From NCBI GenBank assembly GCA_937942465.1, contig CALDEO010000151.1:1-11536 (forward strand): 11,536 nucleotides of DNA, given 5' to 3'. The DNA is from an uncultured Saprospiraceae bacterium (GTDB lineage: Bacteria; Bacteroidota; Bacteroidia; Chitinophagales; Saprospiraceae). A model generated the notes under the pieces. The model was not told the origin of the DNA, made no database searches, and saw nothing but the letters and a program-made list of their open reading frames with translations. Positions 1-11,536 of the stretch are shown piece after piece (the first letter of the stretch is position 1; each line of letters opens with the position of its first letter). A program made the position numbers and the translations under genes.

Positions 1-990
1 GAAGTAGAGCAAGCAGATAACTCATGGATGTATTGGATTCTTTTAGGTTCATTGATTTTATTGTCATTGTTATTAGCTAGAGTAGTGACTAGTTTAAATC
101 AAATAGCAGCAAAGAAGGAAGGTTTAGAATTTGAGGGGAAAACAGTTTTACAGACGCTTACTAGTAAAGGTATCGTGAGTTTAGTGTTATTCTCATTGAT
201 CGTCTTAGGTGGTTATACCACTGTTAATAATGCAATCGATTTAGGTCGTCAACAAAACTATGCTCCTGATCAGCCAATAAAGTTCTCTCACGAGACACAT
301 GCTGGAATACACAAAATAGAATGTCAATATTGTCATGATGGTGCTAGAAGATCTAAGCACTCAGTGATACCTGCAACAAATACATGTATGAATTGTCACA
401 AGGCAATCAAAAATGGATCTAAGTACGGTACACAAGAATTGACTAAGATATTTGCTTCAGTTGGATACGATCCAACTAGTAACAAATACATGGAGAACTA
501 TGAAGATATGCCACAAGACAGTGTCAAAGCGGTATATACCAAGTGGATCAGTGATCAACATGTTGTCAATGCAGATGACAAAGCAATTGCAGAGACCGAC
601 AAAGATAAAGTTGCTGAAGACCAATGGGAAAACATATTTGCTTCATTAACTAATGAGCAAAAAACAAAAGTACAAGGTCCTATCGAATGGACTAGAATTC
701 ACAATTTACCTGATCACGTTTACTTCAATCATGCACAACACGTAACTGTTGGTAAGGTAGATTGTCAAACATGTCACGGTAAAGTCGAAGAAATGGAAGT
801 AGTTGCACAGCACTCTCCATTGTCTATGGGATGGTGTATCAACTGTCACAGAAAGACTGAAGTGAAGTTTAACGAAAATGAATATTACGCTTCTTATGCT
901 AAGTATCAAGAAGAGGTAAAAGATGGTAAACGAGATAAAGTGACTGTTGCAGATGTCGGCGGTCTTGAGTGTCAAAAATGCCATTACTAA
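1..990 (+). CDS. actA: ACIII subunit ActA, multiheme cytochrome c (5'-partial)
   Basis: This is the multiheme c-type cytochrome subunit of the quinol:cytochrome c oxidoreductase Alternative Complex III. It passes electrons from the Fe-S subunit towards the terminal acceptor on the periplasmic side. Five CXXCH heme-binding motifs are visible: CQYCH (322-336), CMNCH (385-399), CQTCH (763-777), CINCH (835-849) and CQKCH (970-984), the last ending two codons before the stop. His pairs in FSHETH and FNHAQH are plausible distal heme ligands. Two hydrophobic segments lie near 28-81 and 163-225. The first ATG inside the window is at 28, but the frame is open back to base 1 (E-V-E-Q-A-D-N-S-W before that Met), and the first membrane segment starts right at this Met, so the gene very probably begins upstream. 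Flavobacterial ActA proteins, as I recall them, carry an N-terminal monoheme cytochrome domain before this point; whether it is present here cannot be seen. The gene precedes actB by 43 bases. Confidence 0.93.
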   Translation, partial: EVEQADNSWMYWILLGSLILLSLLLARVVTSLNQIAAKKEGLEFEGKTVLQTLTSKGIVSLVLFSLIVLGGYTTVNNAIDLGRQQNYAPDQPIKFSHETHAGIHKIECQYCHDGARRSKHSVIPATNTCMNCHKAIKNGSKYGTQELTKIFASVGYDPTSNKYMENYEDMPQDSVKAVYTKWISDQHVVNADDKAIAETDKDKVAEDQWENIFASLTNEQKTKVQGPIEWTRIHNLPDHVYFNHAQHVTVGKVDCQTCHGKVEEMEVVAQHSPLSMGWCINCHRKTEVKFNENEYYASYAKYQEEVKDGKRDKVTVADVGGLECQKCHY

Positions 991-1033: not shown

Positions 1034-4000
1034 ATGAATCATAAGCAAAATGGAATATGGATCGGGTCTCAGGACTTAAATAAGGATCCAGATTTTATTA
1101 AGGATGCCCAACAGGAGATGAAAACTCCATCTATCTTAGAAGCTGCAGGCGATGAGAATGTAGCTGGTAAAGTAGAAGGTAATAGAAGAGATTTTCTAAA
1201 ATTCTTGGGTTTTGGTCTTGGTGCTGCTACAATCGCAGCAGGTTGTGATACACCTATCAAAAGAGCAATACCTTATGTAATCAAACCAGAAACAATTATT
1301 CCTGGTGTAGCTACATACTATGCTTCTAGTTATGTGCAAGGTGGTGAGTTCTGTCCGATATTAGTGAAAACTAGAGAGGGTAGACCGATCAAAATAGAAG
1401 GTAACAAGATGTCTACAATGACAGAAGGTGGTACTTCTGCTAGAGTCCAAGCATCTGTTTTAGACTTGTATGATGTAAACAGATATAGAACGCCGATCAC
1501 AATGAGTGCAGACGGTGTTCCAACAGCTTCTGATTGGAGCAGCTTCGACGCATTGTTGAAGTCTAAAGTAACATCAAGTGCAACAATACGTGTCGTTAGT
1601 AATACGATCTTAAGTCCAACAACTAAGAAGTTATTGGCTGATGTACAAGCAAAGTACCCTAACACTAAAGTAGTACAATACGATCCAGTATCAAGTGCAG
1701 CAATGCTTAAAGCAAATGAGCAATCATTTGGTGAAGCTGTGATACCAGATTATAAATTTGATAAAGCTGATTTAATCGTTTCGTTTAACGCTGACTTCTT
1801 AGGAACTTGGATTTCTCCAATCGAATATGCAAGAGCTTACACGAAGAGTAGAAAAATCAACAACTTTAAGAATGCTTCAATGTCAAGACATGTACAGGTG
1901 GAAAGTCACATGTCAATGACTGGAAGTAATGCAGATCACCGTATCCTAGTAAAGCCTTCAGAGCAAACAGCAGCTGTTGGTTACTTATACAACAAGGTAG
2001 CAGGTGGTGGAGTATCTACACAAGGATTGAATGCTAAGGCAAAAACAAACTTGGATAAAGTAGCTGCTCAATTGATACAAAATAAAGGTAAATCTTTAGT
2101 TGTATCAGGTAATAATAATGTAGCAGAGCAATTGATGATCAATGCGATCAACAACGCCTTAGCTAACTATGGAGCAACAATTAGCTTTAAGCATGCCTCA
2201 ATGCAACGTCAGGGTGATGAAAGTCAATTGGCTAGTCTTATTTCAGAAATGAAGTCGGGTAGTGTTGATGTTCTTATCATGAACAATGCAAATCCAGTAT
2301 ACGAATACAGTAAAGGAGCTGACTTTGCAGCTGCGATGGATAAAGTTGCAACTAAAGTAGGATTCTACTATAGACCATGTGAGACATCTGCTAAGTGTGA
2401 TGTTATTGCACCAGTACACCATTCTCTTGAGAGTTGGGGTGATGCTGAGCCTAAAAAAGGACAACTTGCAATAATACAACCTACGATTTCGCCTTTATTC
2501 AAGACGAGACACATGGAAGAGTCATTAATGGTTCTTTTAGGTTCAGATAAAATGGCGAGTGATCAGCCATATTATGATTATCTAAAGCAAAGCTGGAGAG
2601 ATTCTCAGTTTTCTAGACAATCAAAGTTTGCATCTTTCGATGCATTCTGGAATGATGCAGTATTTAACGGTATAATAACTGTGAATACAACGGGATCTAA
2701 TCCTAGTTTTAGTGCATCTTCTATAACAATGCCTAAAGTGAGTTCTTCTGACTTAGAGATAAGTTTTAAAGAACCAATAAGTATAGGTAACGGTACTTTC
2801 GCTGATAACCCTTGGTTACAGGAAATGCCAGATCCAGTAACACGTACAACTTGGGGTACATATTTAAGTGTACCACTTAAGTTCGATGGTGTTAAGAAAT
2901 TCACAGGATTGAATGACCTTAAAGATGGTGACTTAGTAGAAGTTACGATCTCAGGTAAAAAACTAGTACTTCCAGTTATTCAGCAGTTTGGCCAGATGTC
3001 TGGTACAATAGCAGTAACACTTGGTGGTGGTAGAAATAGTGGTGGATTTGCATCTAAAGAAGTTGGAGCTAAGGTCAATGACTGTAGCGCAACGGTAGGT
3101 GGTTTATCAACATACTTCAGTACAGACGTTTCACTTTCTGGTAAAGTAGGTGAAGAAGAGTACTTCTCTTGTGTACAATACCATAATACGATGGGTGTAA
3201 CTGGAGAGTATGAGCCAACTGGAGAAACTGTAAATGTAGATGAGCAAGCACTTGCACCTGGATATGGTAACATATTTGAAGGATTTCAAGGAGCCCTCGT
3301 TAATAGATCAATTATTAGAACGGCAGAACTAGAAACACTAGTTGAGACGACACATGATCTAGAGCATGAAAGAGAGCATCACCAGAAGTTGAATGCCAAC
3401 ACGATGTACCCATTTGATGAGTACATGGAAGAAAACTATGGTCAAGGACACCACTGGGGTATGCATGTAGATATGAATACATGTACTGGTTGTAGTGCTT
3501 GTACAGTAGCATGTATGGCTGAGAACAATGTTCCTGTAGTAGGAAAAGAAAGAGTAGCAAAGCATCAAGAGATGTCTTGGTTACGTATTGATAGATACTT
3601 CTTTGGAGATTATGAAAACCCTAACACGGTTTATCAACCATTGATGTGTCAACACTGTGATAATGCTCCTTGTGAGAATGTTTGTCCAGTAAATGCAACG
3701 AATCACAGTTCTGAAGGACTGAATCAAATGACTTATAACAGATGTATCGGTACAAGATATTGTGCAAATAACTGTCCGTTTAAAGTAAGAAGATTCAACT
3801 GGATGGATTACACAACTGCAGATTTATTCCCAGCTAACCAAGTATTGGTGAATGGTGAAGATCTTGCGTTTGGTGCTGACAACTTAACAAGAATGGTATT
3901 GAATCCAGATGTTACCGTCAGAACAAGAGGTGTAATCGAGAAATGTAGTTTCTGTGTACAGAGAATCCAAGAAGCGAAGTTGACTGCAAAGTCTGAATCA

Positions 4001-4213
4001 AGAAGAATGATTGATTCTGATCTACAAGTTGCTTGTGCTAGTGCATGTCCAGTAGATGCAATCACATTTGGAGATAGAAATGATAAAGAAAGTAAAGTTG
4101 CTAAAGCTTGGGATAATTCACTAGTCTACGAAGTACTAGAAGAAGTGAATACACAGTCTTCAGTTAGATATGCAATGAAAGTAGTAAATAAAGATAAATC
4201 GATAGAAGCGTAA
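1034..4213 (+). CDS. actB: ACIII subunit ActB, Fe-S protein with molybdopterin-oxidoreductase-like domain
   Basis: This is the large peripheral periplasmic Fe-S subunit of Alternative Complex III (1059 aa, usual length). The N-terminus has a twin-arginine signal (Arg51-Arg52 in NRRDFLKFLG), a hydrophobic stretch, and a lipobox-like AAGC with Cys71, so Tat export followed by lipid anchoring is likely. Residues about 80-760 form the molybdopterin-oxidoreductase-like part; the N-terminal Cys cluster of true molybdoenzymes is absent, as expected for ActB, which carries no Mo cofactor. The C-terminal ferredoxin-like part has four Cys groups: C817/820/823/827, C872/875/880/884, C904/910/914 (CIGTRYC, with Thr907 where a Cys would sit) and C971/974 plus C1001/1005. 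These 15 Cys fit three [4Fe-4S] and one [3Fe-4S] cluster, the known ActB set. Role: a wire from the quinol site in ActC to the hemes. ATG start; upstream sequence is A/T-rich without Shine-Dalgarno. Confidence 0.96.
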   Translation: MNHKQNGIWIGSQDLNKDPDFIKDAQQEMKTPSILEAAGDENVAGKVEGNRRDFLKFLGFGLGAATIAAGCDTPIKRAIPYVIKPETIIPGVATYYASSYVQGGEFCPILVKTREGRPIKIEGNKMSTMTEGGTSARVQASVLDLYDVNRYRTPITMSADGVPTASDWSSFDALLKSKVTSSATIRVVSNTILSPTTKKLLADVQAKYPNTKVVQYDPVSSAAMLKANEQSFGEAVIPDYKFDKADLIVSFNADFLGTWISPIEYARAYTKSRKINNFKNASMSRHVQVESHMSMTGSNADHRILVKPSEQTAAVGYLYNKVAGGGVSTQGLNAKAKTNLDKVAAQLIQNKGKSLVVSGNNNVAEQLMINAINNALANYGATISFKHASMQRQGDESQLASLISEMKSGSVDVLIMNNANPVYEYSKGADFAAAMDKVATKVGFYYRPCETSAKCDVIAPVHHSLESWGDAEPKKGQLAIIQPTISPLFKTRHMEESLMVLLGSDKMASDQPYYDYLKQSWRDSQFSRQSKFASFDAFWNDAVFNGIITVNTTGSNPSFSASSITMPKVSSSDLEISFKEPISIGNGTFADNPWLQEMPDPVTRTTWGTYLSVPLKFDGVKKFTGLNDLKDGDLVEVTISGKKLVLPVIQQFGQMSGTIAVTLGGGRNSGGFASKEVGAKVNDCSATVGGLSTYFSTDVSLSGKVGEEEYFSCVQYHNTMGVTGEYEPTGETVNVDEQALAPGYGNIFEGFQGALVNRSIIRTAELETLVETTHDLEHEREHHQKLNANTMYPFDEYMEENYGQGHHWGMHVDMNTCTGCSACTVACMAENNVPVVGKERVAKHQEMSWLRIDRYFFGDYENPNTVYQPLMCQHCDNAPCENVCPVNATNHSSEGLNQMTYNRCIGTRYCANNCPFKVRRFNWMDYTTADLFPANQVLVNGEDLAFGADNLTRMVLNPDVTVRTRGVIEKCSFCVQRIQEAKLTAKSESRRMIDSDLQVACASACPVDAITFGDRNDKESKVAKAWDNSLVYEVLEEVNTQSSVRYAMKVVNKDKSIEA

Positions 4214-4259: not shown

Positions 4260-5951
4260 ATGAGTTCACCAGTTAGTGCAATCAGACCGCCATTAGTCAC
4301 AGGGCATAAGTCGTACCACGACATCACCGAAGACTTAGTGATTGGGACAGAAAAGACTCCAACAGCCTCATGGGTTATTGGGTTGATTCTTTCTGTTACC
4401 TTATTAGGATTCGGTATATTCTGTATACTCTGGACCATTTGGAATGGTATCGGTACATGGAATTTGAATAGAACCATTGGATGGGGTTGGGATATTACCA
4501 ATTTTGTATGGTGGATCGGTATCGGTCACGCGGGTACATTGATCTCAGCGATCTTATTACTGTTCAGACAGAAATGGAGGACAGGGGTAAACAGAGCAGC
4601 CGAGGCGATGACCATTTTCGCCGTTATGTGTGCCGGTTTATTTCCATTAATACACATGGGACGTATCTGGATGGCAATGTTTATTTTTCCTTACGTGAAT
4701 ACGAGAGGACCTTTATGGCCTAACTTCAATTCGCCGTTGTTATGGGATGTATTCGCCATTAGTACTTATTTCACGGTATCATTATTATTCTGGTACACTG
4801 GTTTAGTACCTGATTTTGCAACAGTAAGAGATAGAGCAAAAGGATTTAGAAGAAAAATCTACAGTTTCTTATCATTCGGTTGGACTGGTTCAGCAAAGCA
4901 CTGGCAGAGATGGGAGTCATTATCTCTCATATTAGCAGGTATTGCTACACCACTAGTACTTTCGGTACATACAATTGTAAGTTTTGATTTCGCCACTTCT
5001 GTAATTCCAGGATGGCATACAACGATATTTCCTCCATACTTTGTTGCAGGAGCCGTATTCTCTGGTTTCGCGATGGTACAGACATTGATGATCATCACTA
5101 GAAAGATCATGAAGTTGGAAGATTATATTACGATTGAGCATATCGAATCTATGAATAAAGTCATAGTAACGACGGGTATGATCGTAGGTGTAGCTTATTT
5201 AACAGAGTTATTCATCTCTTGGTATTCAGGATATGTATATGAGCAGTTTGCATTCTTCAACAGAGCACTTGGACCATATTACTGGTCTTACTTCGGTATG
5301 ATGTTCTGTAACGTTGTATCACCACTGTTCTTCTTTAGCAAGAAATTAAGAAGGAATATTCAATTTACATTCTTCATGTCTATACTGATTAACATCGGTA
5401 TGTGGTTTGAGAGGTTTGTAATTATCGCGACGACTTTAGCTAGAGATTATTTACCATCATCATGGAGTTTTTATGTTCCTACATGGGTCGAGATCGGTAT
5501 TTACTTAGGTACGTTCGGATTATTCTTTACACTATACTTAATATTCGTAAGAGTAGCACCCGTAGTTGCAATTGCAGAGGTTAAGAGTATTTTGAAATCT
5601 TCAGGAGACCAGTATACAGGTGGTCACTCTGATTCACATAGTCACAAAGCAGCTCCTGCAAAAAAGAAGACGCTTGTAGACACTGCTGCTAATGTGGTAA
5701 GTGATAGTTTAAAGAAGTTAGAAGGAATAGGACCGAAGATAGAGCAAGTATTGAATGCTGGAGGTATTTATACTTTTGAACAATTATCTCAGACAAGTGT
5801 AGACAAAATGCAGTCTTTACTTGATAGTGCTGATGGTAACTTCAAAGGTAATAGTCCTGAGTCATGGGCTGATCAAGCAAGATTAGCTGCTGATGGTAAG
5901 TGGGATGAGTTAAAAACATTACAGGACAAACTTGACGGCGGTCGATACTAA
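4260..5951 (+). CDS. actC: ACIII subunit ActC, NrfD-like quinol-oxidising membrane protein with extra C-terminal HhH-like domain
   Basis: This is the NrfD/PsrC-family integral membrane subunit of Alternative Complex III and the proposed quinol-oxidation site. Residues about 35-445 hold roughly ten hydrophobic helices, with family-typical IGIGHAG (His90) and PLIHMGR (His132) segments and long aromatic stretches. The protein is 563 aa, about 90-100 residues longer than I expect for ActC. After the last helix comes a short His-rich linker (GGHSDSHSHK, about 450-459), an Ala/Lys-rich hinge, and a folded-looking domain at about 475-563. That domain contains KKLEGIGPKIEQVLNAGGIY (GIGP at 489-492) and ends with a W..QA.LA..GKWDEL..LQ..LDGGR pattern. 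This matches the helix-hairpin-helix-like extension on some Bacteroidota ribosomal L21 proteins. Reading frame and codon use run smoothly through the junction, so this is a real fusion and not a frameshift. A 6-bp A/T-rich inverted repeat sits just before the ATG. The gene is followed by actD after 12 bases. Confidence 0.95.
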   Translation: MSSPVSAIRPPLVTGHKSYHDITEDLVIGTEKTPTASWVIGLILSVTLLGFGIFCILWTIWNGIGTWNLNRTIGWGWDITNFVWWIGIGHAGTLISAILLLFRQKWRTGVNRAAEAMTIFAVMCAGLFPLIHMGRIWMAMFIFPYVNTRGPLWPNFNSPLLWDVFAISTYFTVSLLFWYTGLVPDFATVRDRAKGFRRKIYSFLSFGWTGSAKHWQRWESLSLILAGIATPLVLSVHTIVSFDFATSVIPGWHTTIFPPYFVAGAVFSGFAMVQTLMIITRKIMKLEDYITIEHIESMNKVIVTTGMIVGVAYLTELFISWYSGYVYEQFAFFNRALGPYYWSYFGMMFCNVVSPLFFFSKKLRRNIQFTFFMSILINIGMWFERFVIIATTLARDYLPSSWSFYVPTWVEIGIYLGTFGLFFTLYLIFVRVAPVVAIAEVKSILKSSGDQYTGGHSDSHSHKAAPAKKKTLVDTAANVVSDSLKKLEGIGPKIEQVLNAGGIYTFEQLSQTSVDKMQSLLDSADGNFKGNSPESWADQARLAADGKWDELKTLQDKLDGGRY

Positions 5952-5963
5952 TATACAATAGAC

Positions 5964-6485
5964 ATGGCAGTTAAAACAGTAGATTATATTTATGGATTGT
6001 ACAATGACGAGGAGATACTTCTCGACGCTGTACGTACAGCTAACGCTGAGCATCTTGAAATAGGAGAGGTGTATTCACCGTTTCCTGTTCACGGTCTAGA
6101 CCCGTTATTGGGCTTAGAAGAATCAAGATTGCACATTGCAGGTTTTGTATATGGTGGACTTGGTACATTGACAGCATTCCTTGGGATGACTTGGATATTT
6201 ACTAAGGATTGGCCGATTATATTTGGTGGTAAGCCATATTGGTCAGTACCAGCATTCATTCCGATTACATTCGAGCTTACAGTACTTTTCGCAGCGATCG
6301 GTATGGTAGTTTCTTTTTACATTGTCTGTGGTCTAGGGCCCGGAGTTAAAGAGAAAACATTGGATGACCGTATCACGGATGATAAGTTCTGTATCGCTTT
6401 CAATAAATCTGAAGTAAATATTGATGCGGTTAACGCATTTTTCAAAAATACAGGTGCTGAGGAAGTTAATTCTAAATCACTTTAA
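5964..6485 (+). CDS. actD: ACIII subunit ActD (DUF3341 family membrane protein)
   Basis: This is the small membrane subunit of Alternative Complex III (173 aa, the usual size for DUF3341/ActD). No cofactor motif is visible, and none is known for the family; it is a structural subunit packed against the NrfD-like proteins. The N-terminal 45 residues look soluble and start with a compact alpha/beta-like stretch (VDYIYGLYNDEEILLDAV). A PFPVHGLDPLLGL segment follows and then two hydrophobic helices: about residues 53-78 (FVYGGLGTLTAFLGMTWIF) and about 93-120 (ITFELTVLFAAIGMVVSFY). A short acidic C-terminal tail completes it. The ATG lies 12 bases after the actC stop, and actE follows after 12 bases, which suggests translational coupling. 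The assignment rests on the combination of sequence character and position between actC and actE. Confidence 0.93.
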   Translation: MAVKTVDYIYGLYNDEEILLDAVRTANAEHLEIGEVYSPFPVHGLDPLLGLEESRLHIAGFVYGGLGTLTAFLGMTWIFTKDWPIIFGGKPYWSVPAFIPITFELTVLFAAIGMVVSFYIVCGLGPGVKEKTLDDRITDDKFCIAFNKSEVNIDAVNAFFKNTGAEEVNSKSL

Positions 6486-6497
6486 GCATTGATCGAA

Positions 6498-7466
6498 ATG
6501 AAATTATTGAATAAATCATACTATTTAGGTTTTGTTCTTGCAGTGCTCATCATGGTGAGTAGCTGTCAGCAATCAGGCCCTAATAATCCAGGTAGTGAGT
6601 ACATGCCCGATATGGGGCACTCTGTTGCCTATGAAGCCAATTACTATTCTTACTACTCTCATAATACATGGGGTACGGAGAAAGAGTATCACGAAATGGC
6701 TCAACCAAGAGTACCAGTAACTGGGTCAATACCTAGAGACTTAAAAAATAAGCAGAGATCATCTGATCAAGCAGGTACGATGCCTTATATGTATGTAGAT
6801 ACAGAGGAGTCAAGAACTGCAGCCACTGCACAACTTATAAACAATCCTTACCCAATAAGTATGGATGGTCTTAAAAGAGGTAAAGACTTGTATAACACAT
6901 TCTGTGCTATCTGTCATGGTGAAAAAGGTGATGGTAATGGATATCTCGTAAGAGATGCCAATCCTGCAACAGGAGATGAAGGTGGTAAGTACCCAGTACA
7001 ACCAGCTATATTGACTAATGACGAGTTTACAACAACTTCTAATGGTAGACTATATCATGCAATCATGTATGGTAAGAATCTAATGGGAGGTTACGCTGAT
7101 AAAATGAATTCTGAAGAAAGATGGCAAGTAATCCACTACATCAGATCATTACAAGCTAAAGAAAAGAAGCAAGAGTATACGCAATTAGTTAATACACTTA
7201 ATAGTGTAGACAAGCCAGCAGGTAGAGACTTTAAAGTATTACCTTCTAGCTATGATCCTAGTGCAATTACTCATACTATGTCTGAAGGAAATCATGATCA
7301 TGATAGTCATGGTCACGATGCACATGGACATGATGCTGACGCAGAAGGACATCACGATCACGGTGATCACTCAACAGAAGAGGGTGGACATCATTCAGGA
7401 GAGTCACACTCTGGCGATAGCCACGATGGAGACCATTCAACTAATCAAGAATCACACAAGCACTAA
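6498..7466 (+). CDS. actE: ACIII subunit ActE, monoheme cytochrome c lipoprotein with His-rich tail
   Basis: This is the monoheme cytochrome c subunit of Alternative Complex III, expected on the periplasmic face of the inner membrane. I place the start at ATG 6498 and not at the in-frame TTG at 6489: from the ATG the protein begins with a clean lipoprotein signal (MKLLNK, hydrophobic core, VSSC) with the acylated Cys at residue 23. The single heme site is CAICH at residues 136-140, followed by GEKGDGNG; Met196 in YGKNLMGGYA is the likely axial ligand. The class I cytochrome fold ends near WQVIHYIRSLQ. The last 64 residues (259-322) are odd: 18 His mixed with Asp, Gly, Ser and Glu, low-complexity and probably disordered, a candidate metal-binding tail. 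The total is 322 aa, longer than a plain ActE because of this tail. The stop is followed by actF with only three bases between them. Confidence 0.94.
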   Translation: MKLLNKSYYLGFVLAVLIMVSSCQQSGPNNPGSEYMPDMGHSVAYEANYYSYYSHNTWGTEKEYHEMAQPRVPVTGSIPRDLKNKQRSSDQAGTMPYMYVDTEESRTAATAQLINNPYPISMDGLKRGKDLYNTFCAICHGEKGDGNGYLVRDANPATGDEGGKYPVQPAILTNDEFTTTSNGRLYHAIMYGKNLMGGYADKMNSEERWQVIHYIRSLQAKEKKQEYTQLVNTLNSVDKPAGRDFKVLPSSYDPSAITHTMSEGNHDHDSHGHDAHGHDADAEGHHDHGDHSTEEGGHHSGESHSGDSHDGDHSTNQESHKH

Positions 7467-7469
7467 TTG

Positions 7470-8756
7470 ATGGGAGCTACACATATACAAGCACGTATCG
7501 AGAACTTTGAGTTCACTGGAAAACTTAAGATGTCATTAGCCATCATGATGGGTATTGGAATATTGAGTTTAGGATGGACTTGGTTTGTTGATGACGCAAG
7601 TCACACCAGATTTTGGACGAATTTATTGCACAATGCAACATTCGTAACTGGAATCGCATTCACAGCATTATTTTTCCTTTGTGTATGCATAACAGCATGG
7701 GCAGGATGGGTAACATTATTTAAGAGACTTTGGGAGGCAATGTCTATGTTCTTATTACCAGCATTGGTTTTAATGACGGGATTTGCACTCTGTATATATT
7801 TCAACGTTGGTCATAATACCCTATATCACTGGGCTGATGCAGGTAGCGTTGAGACAGATACCATCCTTAACGGAAAATCTTCATTCTTAAACAAGAACTG
7901 GTACTTATTTGGTACTATTATCATTGTAGGAGTTTGGATGCTTTTCGCAAAAAAAATTAGATCATTATCATTAGATGAAGACGCTAATGGAGATTCAGAT
8001 TTTGAACATCACCATAGCCTCAGAAGATGGGCACCAGCTTTCTTGCCTTTTGCAGGGTTTTCAAGTGCTGCAATAATCTGGCAATGGATTATGTCATTAG
8101 ATGCTCACTGGTACAGTACTATGTTTGCATGGTATTCAGGTGCAAGTTGGTTTGTATCTATGATTGCAACGACAATCTTGATTTTAATGTATTTAAAGTC
8201 TAAAGGATATTACCAACAAGTGTCTTCAGAGCACATACATGATTTAGGTAAGTTTTTATTTGCCTTCAGTATATTCTGGACATACTTATGGTTCTCACAA
8301 TTCATGCTTATATGGTATGCCAATATTGGTGAAGAAACTGGTTATTTTAAATTAAGAATGGATGAGTATCCAATTCTATTTTGGGGCAACCTTTTGATAA
8401 ACTTTATACTGCCTTTCTTTGTTCTAATGAGGAATGATACGAAGAGAAAAGCAGGTTCGCTAATATTTGTAGCGATCATGATAATCTTTGGTCACTGGTT
8501 GGACTTTTTCTTAATGATTAAGCCAGGAGCTTTACATACTTTTCACGAGTTGGGAGCTGGACATGGAGATCACGGAGCAGTAGCACATGCTCATGAGGCA
8601 TTAACTGGTTTTCATTTGCCAGGCTTCTTAGAGATAGGAACGTTTATAGGTTTTATAGGATTATTCTTATTTGTTTTCTTCTCTGCACTAAGTAGAGCAC
8701 CGTTAACACCAAAGAATGACCCATACTTGCAAGAGAGTTTACATCATCACGTTTAA
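7470..8756 (+). CDS. actF: ACIII subunit ActF, NrfD-like membrane protein
   Basis: This is the second large integral membrane subunit of Alternative Complex III, a paralogue of ActC from the NrfD-like family (428 aa, usual length). About ten hydrophobic helices are visible, starting with LKMSLAIMMGIGILSLGWTW and ending with IGTFIGFIGLFLFVFFSALS. Conserved-looking loops include SLDAHWYSTMFAWYSGASW. A His-rich loop, GAGHGDHGAVAHAHEALTG, precedes the last helix, and the protein ends in LHHHV. No cofactor motif is seen; the family role is to form the membrane core with ActC and possibly a proton path. The start is set at ATG 7470; an in-frame TTG at 7467 immediately after the actE stop is possible but less likely. 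The near-abutting actE/actF junction suggests translational coupling. coxB follows after 29 A/T-rich bases. Confidence 0.94.
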   Translation: MGATHIQARIENFEFTGKLKMSLAIMMGIGILSLGWTWFVDDASHTRFWTNLLHNATFVTGIAFTALFFLCVCITAWAGWVTLFKRLWEAMSMFLLPALVLMTGFALCIYFNVGHNTLYHWADAGSVETDTILNGKSSFLNKNWYLFGTIIIVGVWMLFAKKIRSLSLDEDANGDSDFEHHHSLRRWAPAFLPFAGFSSAAIIWQWIMSLDAHWYSTMFAWYSGASWFVSMIATTILILMYLKSKGYYQQVSSEHIHDLGKFLFAFSIFWTYLWFSQFMLIWYANIGEETGYFKLRMDEYPILFWGNLLINFILPFFVLMRNDTKRKAGSLIFVAIMIIFGHWLDFFLMIKPGALHTFHELGAGHGDHGAVAHAHEALTGFHLPGFLEIGTFIGFIGLFLFVFFSALSRAPLTPKNDPYLQESLHHHV

Positions 8757-8785: not shown

Positions 8786-10297
8786 ATGACAGCTTTAATA
8801 GCAACCATTATAATAGTTCTCTTAGTAGTAATCTTGTTACAGATTGCTAGAGTGACAGAACTATCCAAAAAGATCAGAGGAGAGGAAGAATCAGAAAGAA
8901 GATCAAATGATCGAACTGCTTTATGGCTCGTTGTTTTTATGATCGCATTTCTAGTTCTATGTGTAGCCTCTGCATTTTATTATAAAAATGTAATGTTAGG
9001 GTACGGACCGCATGAGTCTGCCTCCGAGCATGGTGGTAAGATCGATGGATTATTTAATACTACTTTATTCTTTACGGGTATCGTATTTATATTGACTCAC
9101 ATCCTTTTATTTTGGTATTCTTTCAAATACAGATATAAAAAAGGTAATACATCTAAGTTCATGGTGCATGACACCAATCTAGAGCTAGTATGGACTGGTA
9201 TTCCAGCTGTTGTAATGACATTCTTGGTAGTACAAGGTCTTATGGTATGGAATGAGATAATGCCAGATATATCTTCTGATAAGGAATATCTTGAAATCGA
9301 AGCAACCGGTTACCAGTTTGCTTGGGAAATTAGATACCCTGGAGAAGATGGTTTATTAGGAACTAAAGATTTCAGAAAGATTGTACCTGGTGTGAATAAC
9401 ATTGGACAAGACTGGACTGATGAGAAGAATGTTGATGATATACTATTAAGTGGATCTGACATGATTGTTTTACCAGTGGATACTACAGTAAGAGTAAGAA
9501 TTACATCAAGAGATGTATTACACAACTTTTACTTACCTCACTTCAGAGTGAAAATGGACGCAATACCTGGGTTACCTACTTATTTCATATTCAAGCCGAC
9601 TTTAACGACTGAAGAATATAGAAATAATTTAAAGGACTATGCTGAGTGGCAAACACCATTTGATCCAGAAGATCCAGAAAGCAAAATGCGTTGGGAGGAG
9701 TTCAACTATGAGTTGGCTTGTGCTGAGCTATGTGGTAAAGGTCATTACTCTATGAGAAGAGTATTGAAAGTAGTAACAAGAGAAGAGTATAATGTTTGGT
9801 TGGCAGGACAGAAGTCATATTACTTAAACAACATAAGAGGTACGGCTAACGATCCTGAGGTAAATAGAAATAAACTATTCGGACCTGAGATTACTGAGAG
9901 AAGAAAAGAACTTACTAGTGATATAGAGAATGTAGTAACAGCAGAAGAGTCTGCAGCAGCTACTATTCAATTGAAGCATGTATTTTATAATACAGGGACA
10001 GCTACACTAGATAAACGGTCTCAATATGAATTAGACCACTTGAGTACATTATTAAAGAAGTATGGTGATCTCAACGTAGAGCTTGCCGGTCATACAGACA
10101 GTGTTGGTGATGATGGCATGAATTTGAATTTATCACAGAGTAGAGCGAACAATGTTAGGGAGTATCTTGTAAATAAAGGTATAGATTCTTCAAGACTATT
10201 GGCAAGAGGATACGGTGAAGTAGAACCTATTGATTCTAATGAGTCAGGTGAGGGTAGAAAAAATAACCGTAGAACAGAATTGAGAATTGCGTCTTAA
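8786..10297 (+). CDS. coxB: Cytochrome c oxidase subunit II (CuA) fused to a C-terminal OmpA-like peptidoglycan-binding domain
   Basis: This is subunit II of the aa3-type cytochrome c oxidase; its CuA centre takes electrons from cytochrome c or directly from ACIII. Four hydrophobic helices are seen (about residues 2-21, 45-66, 89-112, 134-155); the last two are the canonical subunit II pair, the first two the extra N-terminal helices of Bacteroidota CoxB. The CuA ligands are all present: His246 (DVLHNFYLPHF), then C312-A-E-L-C316-G-K-G-H320-Y-S-M323. The aromatic patch reads YQFAW (176-180), with Phe178 where many subunits II have Trp. After a charged linker (about 345-390) comes an OmpA-like domain (391-503): HTDSVG with Asp438, LNLSQSRANNVREYL with Arg453, GYGEVEP, and GRKNNRRTELRI. 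The 15-residue Asp-to-Arg spacing equals that of the diaminopimelate-binding pair in OmpA of Acinetobacter baumannii. Plain subunits II are about 250-400 aa; this one is 503. It ends in tandem TAA stops, with coxA 19 bases further on. Confidence 0.95.
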   Translation: MTALIATIIIVLLVVILLQIARVTELSKKIRGEEESERRSNDRTALWLVVFMIAFLVLCVASAFYYKNVMLGYGPHESASEHGGKIDGLFNTTLFFTGIVFILTHILLFWYSFKYRYKKGNTSKFMVHDTNLELVWTGIPAVVMTFLVVQGLMVWNEIMPDISSDKEYLEIEATGYQFAWEIRYPGEDGLLGTKDFRKIVPGVNNIGQDWTDEKNVDDILLSGSDMIVLPVDTTVRVRITSRDVLHNFYLPHFRVKMDAIPGLPTYFIFKPTLTTEEYRNNLKDYAEWQTPFDPEDPESKMRWEEFNYELACAELCGKGHYSMRRVLKVVTREEYNVWLAGQKSYYLNNIRGTANDPEVNRNKLFGPEITERRKELTSDIENVVTAEESAAATIQLKHVFYNTGTATLDKRSQYELDHLSTLLKKYGDLNVELAGHTDSVGDDGMNLNLSQSRANNVREYLVNKGIDSSRLLARGYGEVEPIDSNESGEGRKNNRRTELRIAS

Positions 10298-10316: not shown

Positions 10317-11536
10317 ATGTCAGAGGTGACGGAACAAACAATAGATGAAATAATCATCAAAGAACAAGGTTACGATGATCATTTTCATGATCATCACCAT
10401 GGTGATAAGTACCAGTCGAGTTTTATCTCGCATTATATATTCAGCATGGATCACAAGATCATTGCTAGACAATTCCTTGTTACAGGAATAATCTGGGCAT
10501 TGATTGGTGCTGGTATGTCTATTATATTCAGATTGCAGTTAGGTTTTCCTGAGGAAAGCTTAACATGGATCAAGCCTTTATTAGGTAAATGGATCGTTGT
10601 AGATGAAGCAGGAATTGGTAAATTGAGTCCAGAGTTCTATTACGCATTGGTGACAATGCACGGTACTATACTGGTCTTCTTTGTATTAACCGCAGGACTG
10701 AGTGGTACATTCAGTAACCTGTTAATACCATTCCAGTTAGGAGCAAGAGATATGGCATCGCCATTTCTTAATATGTTATCATATTGGTTCTTCTTCTTAG
10801 CAGGAGTAGTTATGTTTTATTCATTATTTATAAGTACAGGTCCCGCCTCTGGAGGTTGGACTGCTTATCCTCCGCTGAGTGCCTTACCTCAGGCCGCTAG
10901 TGGATCTGGAGCAGGTATGACTTTATGGTTAGTGAGTTTGACATTCTTCGTAGTATCAGTACTACTTGGAGGAGTTAACTACATAACAACAGTACTTAAC
11001 TTAAGAACTAAAGGTATGAGCCTTTGGAGAATGCCATTAACAATATGGGCATTTTTCGTAACAGCGATTATTGGTTTATTATCATTCCCAGTATTGGTTT
11101 CAGGTTTCTTCATGCTTATGTGTGATAGAGGTTTAGGAACGTCATTCTTCTTAAGTGAGATCTTTATTGAAGGACAAGCACTTGATTTTATCGGTGGTAG
11201 CCCAGTATTATACCAGCATTTATTCTGGTTCTTAGGTCACCCTGAAGTATATATTATCATCTTACCTGCAATGGGTATTGTGTCAGAAGTATTATCTGTA
11301 CATGCTAGAAAGCCAATTTTTGGTTACAAAGCAATGGTATATTCTATATTGGCAATTGCATTCTTAGCATTTATCGTATGGGCTCACCATATGTTTATGT
11401 CAGGTGTCAATCCATTTATTTCGAATTTCTTCGTAGTCTTTACCTTGATCATTGCTGTACCATCAGCCGTTAAAGTGTTTAACTGGATTACGACATTATA
11501 TGGTGGTAACATCAAATTGAATACACCAATGCTTTT
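10317..11536 (+). CDS. coxA: Cytochrome c oxidase subunit I, A1-type heme-copper oxidase (3'-partial)
   Basis: This is the catalytic subunit of the aa3-type oxidase, reducing O2 to water and pumping protons. The frame opens at ATG 10317 and stays open to the window end (about 406 codons), so the C-terminal part, including the heme a / heme a3 His pair of helix X, is missing. Visible landmarks: heme a ligand His115 in TMHGTILVFF; D-channel Asp145 in GARDMASPFLN; GGWTAYPPLS; CuB His308 and cross-link Tyr312 in GHPEVY, with Glu310 marking the A1 type; CuB His357-His358 in WAHHMF; and K-channel Lys386 in PSAVKVFNW. The order matches helices I to about VIII of the family. The N-terminal extension before helix I holds a His-rich run (DDHFHDHHHGD, residues 20-30) that faces the cytoplasm in the known topology. 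The start is 19 bases after the coxB stop. This product closes the electron chain from ACIII and CoxB. Confidence 0.96.
   Translation, partial: MSEVTEQTIDEIIIKEQGYDDHFHDHHHGDKYQSSFISHYIFSMDHKIIARQFLVTGIIWALIGAGMSIIFRLQLGFPEESLTWIKPLLGKWIVVDEAGIGKLSPEFYYALVTMHGTILVFFVLTAGLSGTFSNLLIPFQLGARDMASPFLNMLSYWFFFLAGVVMFYSLFISTGPASGGWTAYPPLSALPQAASGSGAGMTLWLVSLTFFVVSVLLGGVNYITTVLNLRTKGMSLWRMPLTIWAFFVTAIIGLLSFPVLVSGFFMLMCDRGLGTSFFLSEIFIEGQALDFIGGSPVLYQHLFWFLGHPEVYIIILPAMGIVSEVLSVHARKPIFGYKAMVYSILAIAFLAFIVWAHHMFMSGVNPFISNFFVVFTLIIAVPSAVKVFNWITTLYGGNIKLNTPML
10374..10395 (+). repeat. 9-bp perfect inverted repeat inside the 5' end of coxA
   Basis: The arms GATGATCAT (10374-10382) and ATGATCATC (10387-10395) are perfect reverse complements around a 4-base loop TTTC. 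Each arm contains the self-complementary octamer ATGATCAT, so the two arms are also direct repeats. The hairpin would form in the coxA mRNA 57 bases after the start codon. It coincides with the Asp/His codon run (GAT/CAT) that encodes the His-rich N-terminus, so it may be only a by-product of those codons. Confidence 0.5.

Follow-up and report, generated by a model that had tools for sequence, protein, structure and literature searches.

How bacterial respiratory complexes are positioned is an open question, and it is posed in concrete form by a cytochrome c oxidase gene on contig CALDEO010000151.1 of an uncultured Saprospiraceae bacterium (GenBank assembly GCA_937942465.1). The window, i.e. 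the whole stretch of 11,536 nucleotides that was analysed, contains coxB, which encodes an oxidase subunit II ending in an OmpA-like domain of the peptidoglycan-binding type. Does this tail hold the oxidase, together with the alternative complex III (ACIII) encoded beside it, to the cell wall? On balance, we lean towards the view that the CoxB tail binds peptidoglycan via Asp438 and Arg453 and so moors the oxidase and ACIII supercomplex to the wall.

An OmpA-like domain on oxidase subunit II

In the window, coxB is one unbroken open reading frame (ORF; 8786..10297, forward strand) of 503 residues, with Pfam matches to COX2_TM (residues 76-151), COX2 (PF00116, residues 171-262, 45.9 bits against a cut-off of 22) and OmpA (PF00691, residues 400-495). 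The OmpA match covers all 98 model positions and scores 78.4 bits, where the curated cut-off is 27.2, and the NCBIfam CoxB model TIGR02866 was matched at 137 bits, slightly below its cut-off of 147.7. The single ORF and the full-length PF00691 match bear out the original prediction, made from the bare sequence, that an OmpA domain is fused to subunit II. The motifs it had named (HTDSVG, LNLSQSRA, GYGEVEP and GRKNNRRTEL) are present in the translation, and the interval 9959-10294 corresponds to CoxB residues 392-503 (112 residues). Along the forward strand, the gene encodes an N-terminal membrane part (residues 1-159, 8786..9262; hydropathy, AlphaFold helices and COX2_TM), a CuA domain (residues 166-343, 9281..9814) with ligands His246, Cys312, Glu314, Cys316, His320 and Met323, a linker (residues 344-395, 9815..9970) with a helix predicted at 366-385 in the AlphaFold model, and the OmpA-like domain (residues 396-503, 9971..10294). 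An assembly artefact is an unlikely source of the fusion, because the best 120 of 2853 above-threshold homologues all carry the three Pfam domains of CoxB. When the tail alone was searched with phmmer, it matched OmpA-type domains whose structures are known (E 1e-21 to 8e-18 for the top five), and the structure prediction proposed earlier as a check gave an OmpA fold for the tail (AlphaFold model; VIA-align against structural candidates).

Hydropathy placed the hydrophobic stretches of CoxB at residues 1-28, 41-71, 89-113 and 131-159, with none past residue 160. The CuA domain of subunit II lies on the periplasmic side in the established topology, and since no membrane stretch follows residue 160, the tail is periplasmic too, in agreement with the periplasmic C-terminus first proposed. 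Asp438 (codon 10097..10099) and Arg453 (codon 10142..10144), both on the forward strand, are the counterparts of Asp271 and Arg286 of A. baumannii OmpA, by which diaminopimelate (DAP) is bound according to the available part of PMC5974059. The pair keeps the predicted distance of 15 residues and is invariant in 183/183 distinct fused proteins (76 fused coxB loci, the window and 120 listed homologues, with identical tails removed), as are Asn446, Ser450, Asn485, Arg496 and the six CuA ligands. When five fused proteins from the other groups served as queries, 120 proteins were listed, 31 of them with PF00691; the complete spaced motif was found in 28 of these and both Asp and Arg in 30, two of the three incomplete motifs retaining both. 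The sequence DNPR, present in MurE of the same genome and of a congener, presumably denotes a meso-DAP wall type, and on this basis the wall is probably of that type.

The OmpA-like domain might now have another partner, e.g. a second OmpA domain or a lipoprotein of the outer membrane, and link membranes without a grip on peptidoglycan. OmpA-fold domains can bind proteins too, and seven other OmpA stretches are encoded in the window's own genome. Retention of the DAP-site residues in all 183 proteins, and in 30/31 in other groups, counts against a different partner, which we regard as very unlikely.

The spacing from Met323 to Leu396 is near-constant among fused proteins (median 70 residues, range 56-92, n=183), and the linker is partly helical in the AlphaFold model, with block values of the predicted local distance difference test (pLDDT) mostly at 87-91. 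Mean majority identity was highest in the CuA region (75%), intermediate in the OmpA domain (63%) and lowest in the linker (54%). Such spacing and helicity, along with the position of the tail directly after the CuA domain, would also suit a tail that binds peptidoglycan for the sake of assembly or protection, holding the CuA head for copper loading or ActE docking, with mooring as a side effect. Unfused relatives retain the operon, however, and the CuA motif is kept in 21/21 unfused tails examined, leaving this role quite improbable.

The architecture is visible because protein records already carry it as annotation, yet as far as could be found it is undescribed. Among the matches listed from open-literature titles and abstract openings, a scope outside which most subscription journals fall, none had the CoxB-OmpA fusion as its topic, and to that extent the expectation that the fusion had not been reported stands.

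Distribution, origins and loss of the fusion

Family groups, genus groups, genomes and loci are labelled f, g, G and L, respectively, with f1 the window's own family group (Saprospiraceae/Lewinellaceae relatives). The survey of CoxB proteins for COX2 and OmpA domains, suggested at the outset, revealed the architecture to be widespread in f1: among 150 genomes searched, 101 were fused, 36 unfused, 3 contained fragments and 10 had no match at E 1e-60 (tallied by hand; G435, which lacks its start, and G478, divided between two contigs, were counted as fused). No OmpA tail was found at E 0.01 when the 36 unfused loci were searched with a profile. Twelve of 16 loci from named relatives matched through the tail, including L054, in which the frame is broken. 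Wider samples are given as counts among the matches listed, and rare fusions may be missed in them. In the order sample (198 genomes), 34 of the 37 f1 genomes were fused, as were at least 6 of 161 outside f1: G572, G561, G603 (f81), G557 (f96), G691, G586 (f85), all profile-confirmed. All six f1 genomes of the class sample (395 genomes) were fused, with no other fusion, and a one-piece fusion occurred in the phylum sample (296 genomes, 123 with a match) only in six f1 genomes. Two genus groups were mixed, namely g307 (L145 and L146 fused, L155 and L156 unfused) and g322 (L147 fused, L157 and L158 unfused). Genome G539 has two full-length fused coxB genes, at L059 and at a second place. Twenty other Bacteroidota coxB loci chosen for long frames had no OmpA tail by eye; a cytochrome-like CXXCH stretch was seen by eye at the CoxB N-terminus, before the membrane helices, in ten of the 20 (L165-L171, L175, L180, L181).

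In order to examine origins, an OmpA-domain tree of 87 rows was used, with 24 fused Saprospiraceae tails, 16 other-group fused proteins dropped for thinning and 11 background domains (long-branched and near relatives) dropped. The 11 f85/f96 tails nested in a separate OmpA family with 18 non-CoxB domains (support 100/99), these relatives having been recovered because they match the query in its tail part only. A single origin of all fused tails was rejected on this tree, which includes the f85/f96 relatives (approximately unbiased test, p 3e-20), and because their joint grouping is rejected, the sequences indicate at least two independent CoxB-OmpA fusions. An earlier 94-row tree, with own-genome and near OmpA domains only, did not reject a single origin (p 0.556). 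One common origin of the Saprospiraceae and f81 tails was not rejected (p 0.41), and these may share one origin, while a single origin of the 11 f85/f96 tails alone appears doubtful (p 0.03, in a test picked after the tree was seen).

Loss of the domain was seen directly in g307, where most of it has been deleted. At L155, the DNA at the end of the unfused coxB matches the last 66 bases of fused genes at 45 of 66 positions, with 0/2000 shuffles as good; L156 matches at 36-37 of 66 (2-4/2000 shuffles as good), and the best of 22 other unfused loci in the same comparison reached 31-32. A scan of 52 unfused loci for loss scars, by three-frame translation from the CuA motif past the stop, gave weak profile signals for L155 and L156 (E 0.19 and 0.34) and values of 0.006 and 0.02 for L107 and L108, the best shuffled control being E 2.3. 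None of the remaining unfused tails scored below E 0.48 with this profile, so they do not indicate the direction of change. In L107 and L108 the tail is about as long as that of a fused CoxB and the OmpA motif is gone; it looks like a decayed OmpA domain.

Proposed mooring to the cell wall

On the simplest reading, the ACIII-aa3 machine would be moored non-covalently to peptidoglycan. The aa3-type oxidase encoded with ACIII would carry, some 50 residues of linker after the CuA domain of CoxB, a C-terminal OmpA-like domain that in the periplasm could grip meso-diaminopimelate stems through Asp438 and Arg453. We infer that the oxidase, and with it the ACIII supercomplex, would be held to the wall without a covalent bond, comparable to the OmpA domain of MotB and the stators, the likely effect being a supercomplex less laterally mobile or fixed in spacing. 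The ACIII context first noted is confirmed across the collected loci, as actF lies upstream of coxB in 74/76, fused and unfused alike (exceptions L142 and L154, the latter cut by its contig), and coxA is on the same strand as coxB in 75/76, the contig of L133 ending too soon. ACIII and aa3 oxidase form a supercomplex in Flavobacterium johnsoniae, as given in the available parts of PMC8552683 and PMC8361435; the partner complexes are the same, and neither main text contains the word peptidoglycan.

Several observations weigh against mooring. CoxB is without the domain in 36/150 f1 genomes and in 4/16 named loci (L051, L052, L053 and L055, one of them labelled Saprospira grandis), and a fused coxB-coxA pair (L142, G419) has no act gene within 13 kb. 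Asn replaces the ligand-site Asp in the fused protein P0147, and the conserved residues are part of OmpA's general signature, so conservation alone leaves the ligand undecided. On a quick tree built from 110 selected coxB bodies, 47 of them fused and 63 unfused, 18 gains or losses are required, an approximate number given the tree's warning on two long branches meeting (L162, L031), with at least 11 forced by well-supported branches; any benefit of the tail must thus be conditional. With 36 f1 genomes lacking the domain and a scar left by its loss, the tether cannot be a general necessity.

Such frequent absence suggests that the tether is of use in certain settings only, or that the domain is a tolerated passenger, i.e. 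a mobile module spreading among membrane proteins of these bacteria and carried on CoxB but not selected for any role in the oxidase. A passenger would be consistent with the patchy distribution and its 18 changes, with the deletion scar in g307 and with the occurrence of related modules on further membrane proteins, pyrophosphatases among them. The unchanging ligand site (183/183) argues against it, as does the fact that the fusion arose more than once, each time at the C-terminus of CoxB. The ratio of nonsynonymous to synonymous divergence (dN/dS) of the domain, about 0.07 and 0.17, points weakly in the same direction, only two pairs being usable: in 16 gene pairs, dS of the domain was below 1 in only 2, above 2 in 7 and undefined in 7. 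A passenger is considered unlikely, and mooring is retained as the preferred reading.

The tail was compared with known systems in which such domains or extensions occur. It is like the C-terminal domains of OmpA, Pal and PA0833 (PF00691) in profile match, predicted fold, Asp/Arg pair and NRR C-terminal motif, whereas it sits on an inner-membrane protein that is a core respiratory subunit; to our knowledge, the known carriers are outer-membrane, lipo-, motor and secretion proteins. Unlike in the stator anchors MotB, PomB and MotS, the CuA domain lies in between and the neighbours are ActF and CoxA, with no MotA-like channel, and a MotB-type anchor was rejected on the lack of that pairing. In caa3-type oxidases a cytochrome c domain is added at the CoxB C-terminus, so both extend the subunit at that end on the periplasmic side. 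A caa3 oxidase was ruled out, as CoxB has no CXXCH and no cysteine in residues 344-503.

Membrane proton pyrophosphatases that end in an OmpA domain are among the closest non-CoxB relatives of the f85/f96 tails, and in this enzyme the C-terminus is on the periplasmic side. H_PPase (E 1e-264 or better) and OmpA were both found in 4/4 such proteins scanned, the spaced motif was kept in 8/8 tested, and some Bacteroidota pyrophosphatase modules grouped with the f85/f96 CoxB tails in the 87-row tree. Pyrophosphatase-OmpA loci (L242, L243, L244, L245-L248, L256, L258) came from Bacteroidota groups f68, f105, f23 and f3. In a class sample of 149 genomes, most pyrophosphatases had no OmpA tail, only G021 and G118 matching through it among the matches listed. 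By eye, the pyrophosphatase of L259 has a long cysteine-rich tail and that of L260 a long tail which we take to resemble a YceI-type domain. An OmpA-like tail on the pyrophosphatase of Paucibacter and other Burkholderiales is described in PMC11210485. Both this enzyme and the oxidase are ion-pumping inner-membrane enzymes with a C-terminal OmpA-like domain; the enzyme differs, and the available part of the paper speaks of a remote resemblance and of Burkholderiales-type examples.

We tentatively suggest, as a possibility short of an even chance, that Bacteroidota repeatedly make proton-pumping membrane enzymes (the membrane pyrophosphatase and, on at least two occasions, the ACIII-linked oxidase) wall-moored by grafted periplasmic OmpA modules, which would join oxidase and pyrophosphatase in one possible principle, that of wall-moored ion pumps. 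If the tail grips the wall, a terminal oxidase bears a genetically encoded tether, and on the wider suggestion respiratory supercomplexes in these bacteria would form static arrays fastened to the wall and not freely diffusing islands. Such a tether would make positioning directly testable, because close relatives with and without the tail exist and two residue changes should abolish the tether.

Operon context and neighbouring genes

The window is a single-strand operon, all on the forward strand, in the order actA, actB, actC, actD, actE, actF, coxB, coxA. The multihaem cytochrome of ACIII is encoded by actA (1..990, 5' end missing; PF02085/PF14522 and operon position), the iron-sulphur subunit by actB (1034..4213; Fer4 families and operon position) and the NrfD-type subunit by actC (4260..5951; PF03916). 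These are followed by actD (5964..6485; PF11821 ActD, E 4.5e-56), actE for a monohaem cytochrome c (6489..7466; PF13442/PF00034) and actF for a membrane subunit (7467..8756), which had no Pfam match and was named by its conserved place in the operon. Downstream of coxB, oxidase subunit I is encoded by coxA (10317..11534; PF00115, E 2e-99), an ORF open at its 3' end that runs off the window.

The tail of ActC (residues about 458-552) matches the C-terminal parts of the NCBIfam NuoE (PRK12373) and ribosomal L21 models, and presumably resembles a helix-hairpin-helix; a tail of this type continues the frame in L041, L043, L114 and L120, and L040 has it in a frame of its own. The ActE C-terminus (in 6489-7466) and the CoxA N-terminus (10317-10400) are histidine-rich.
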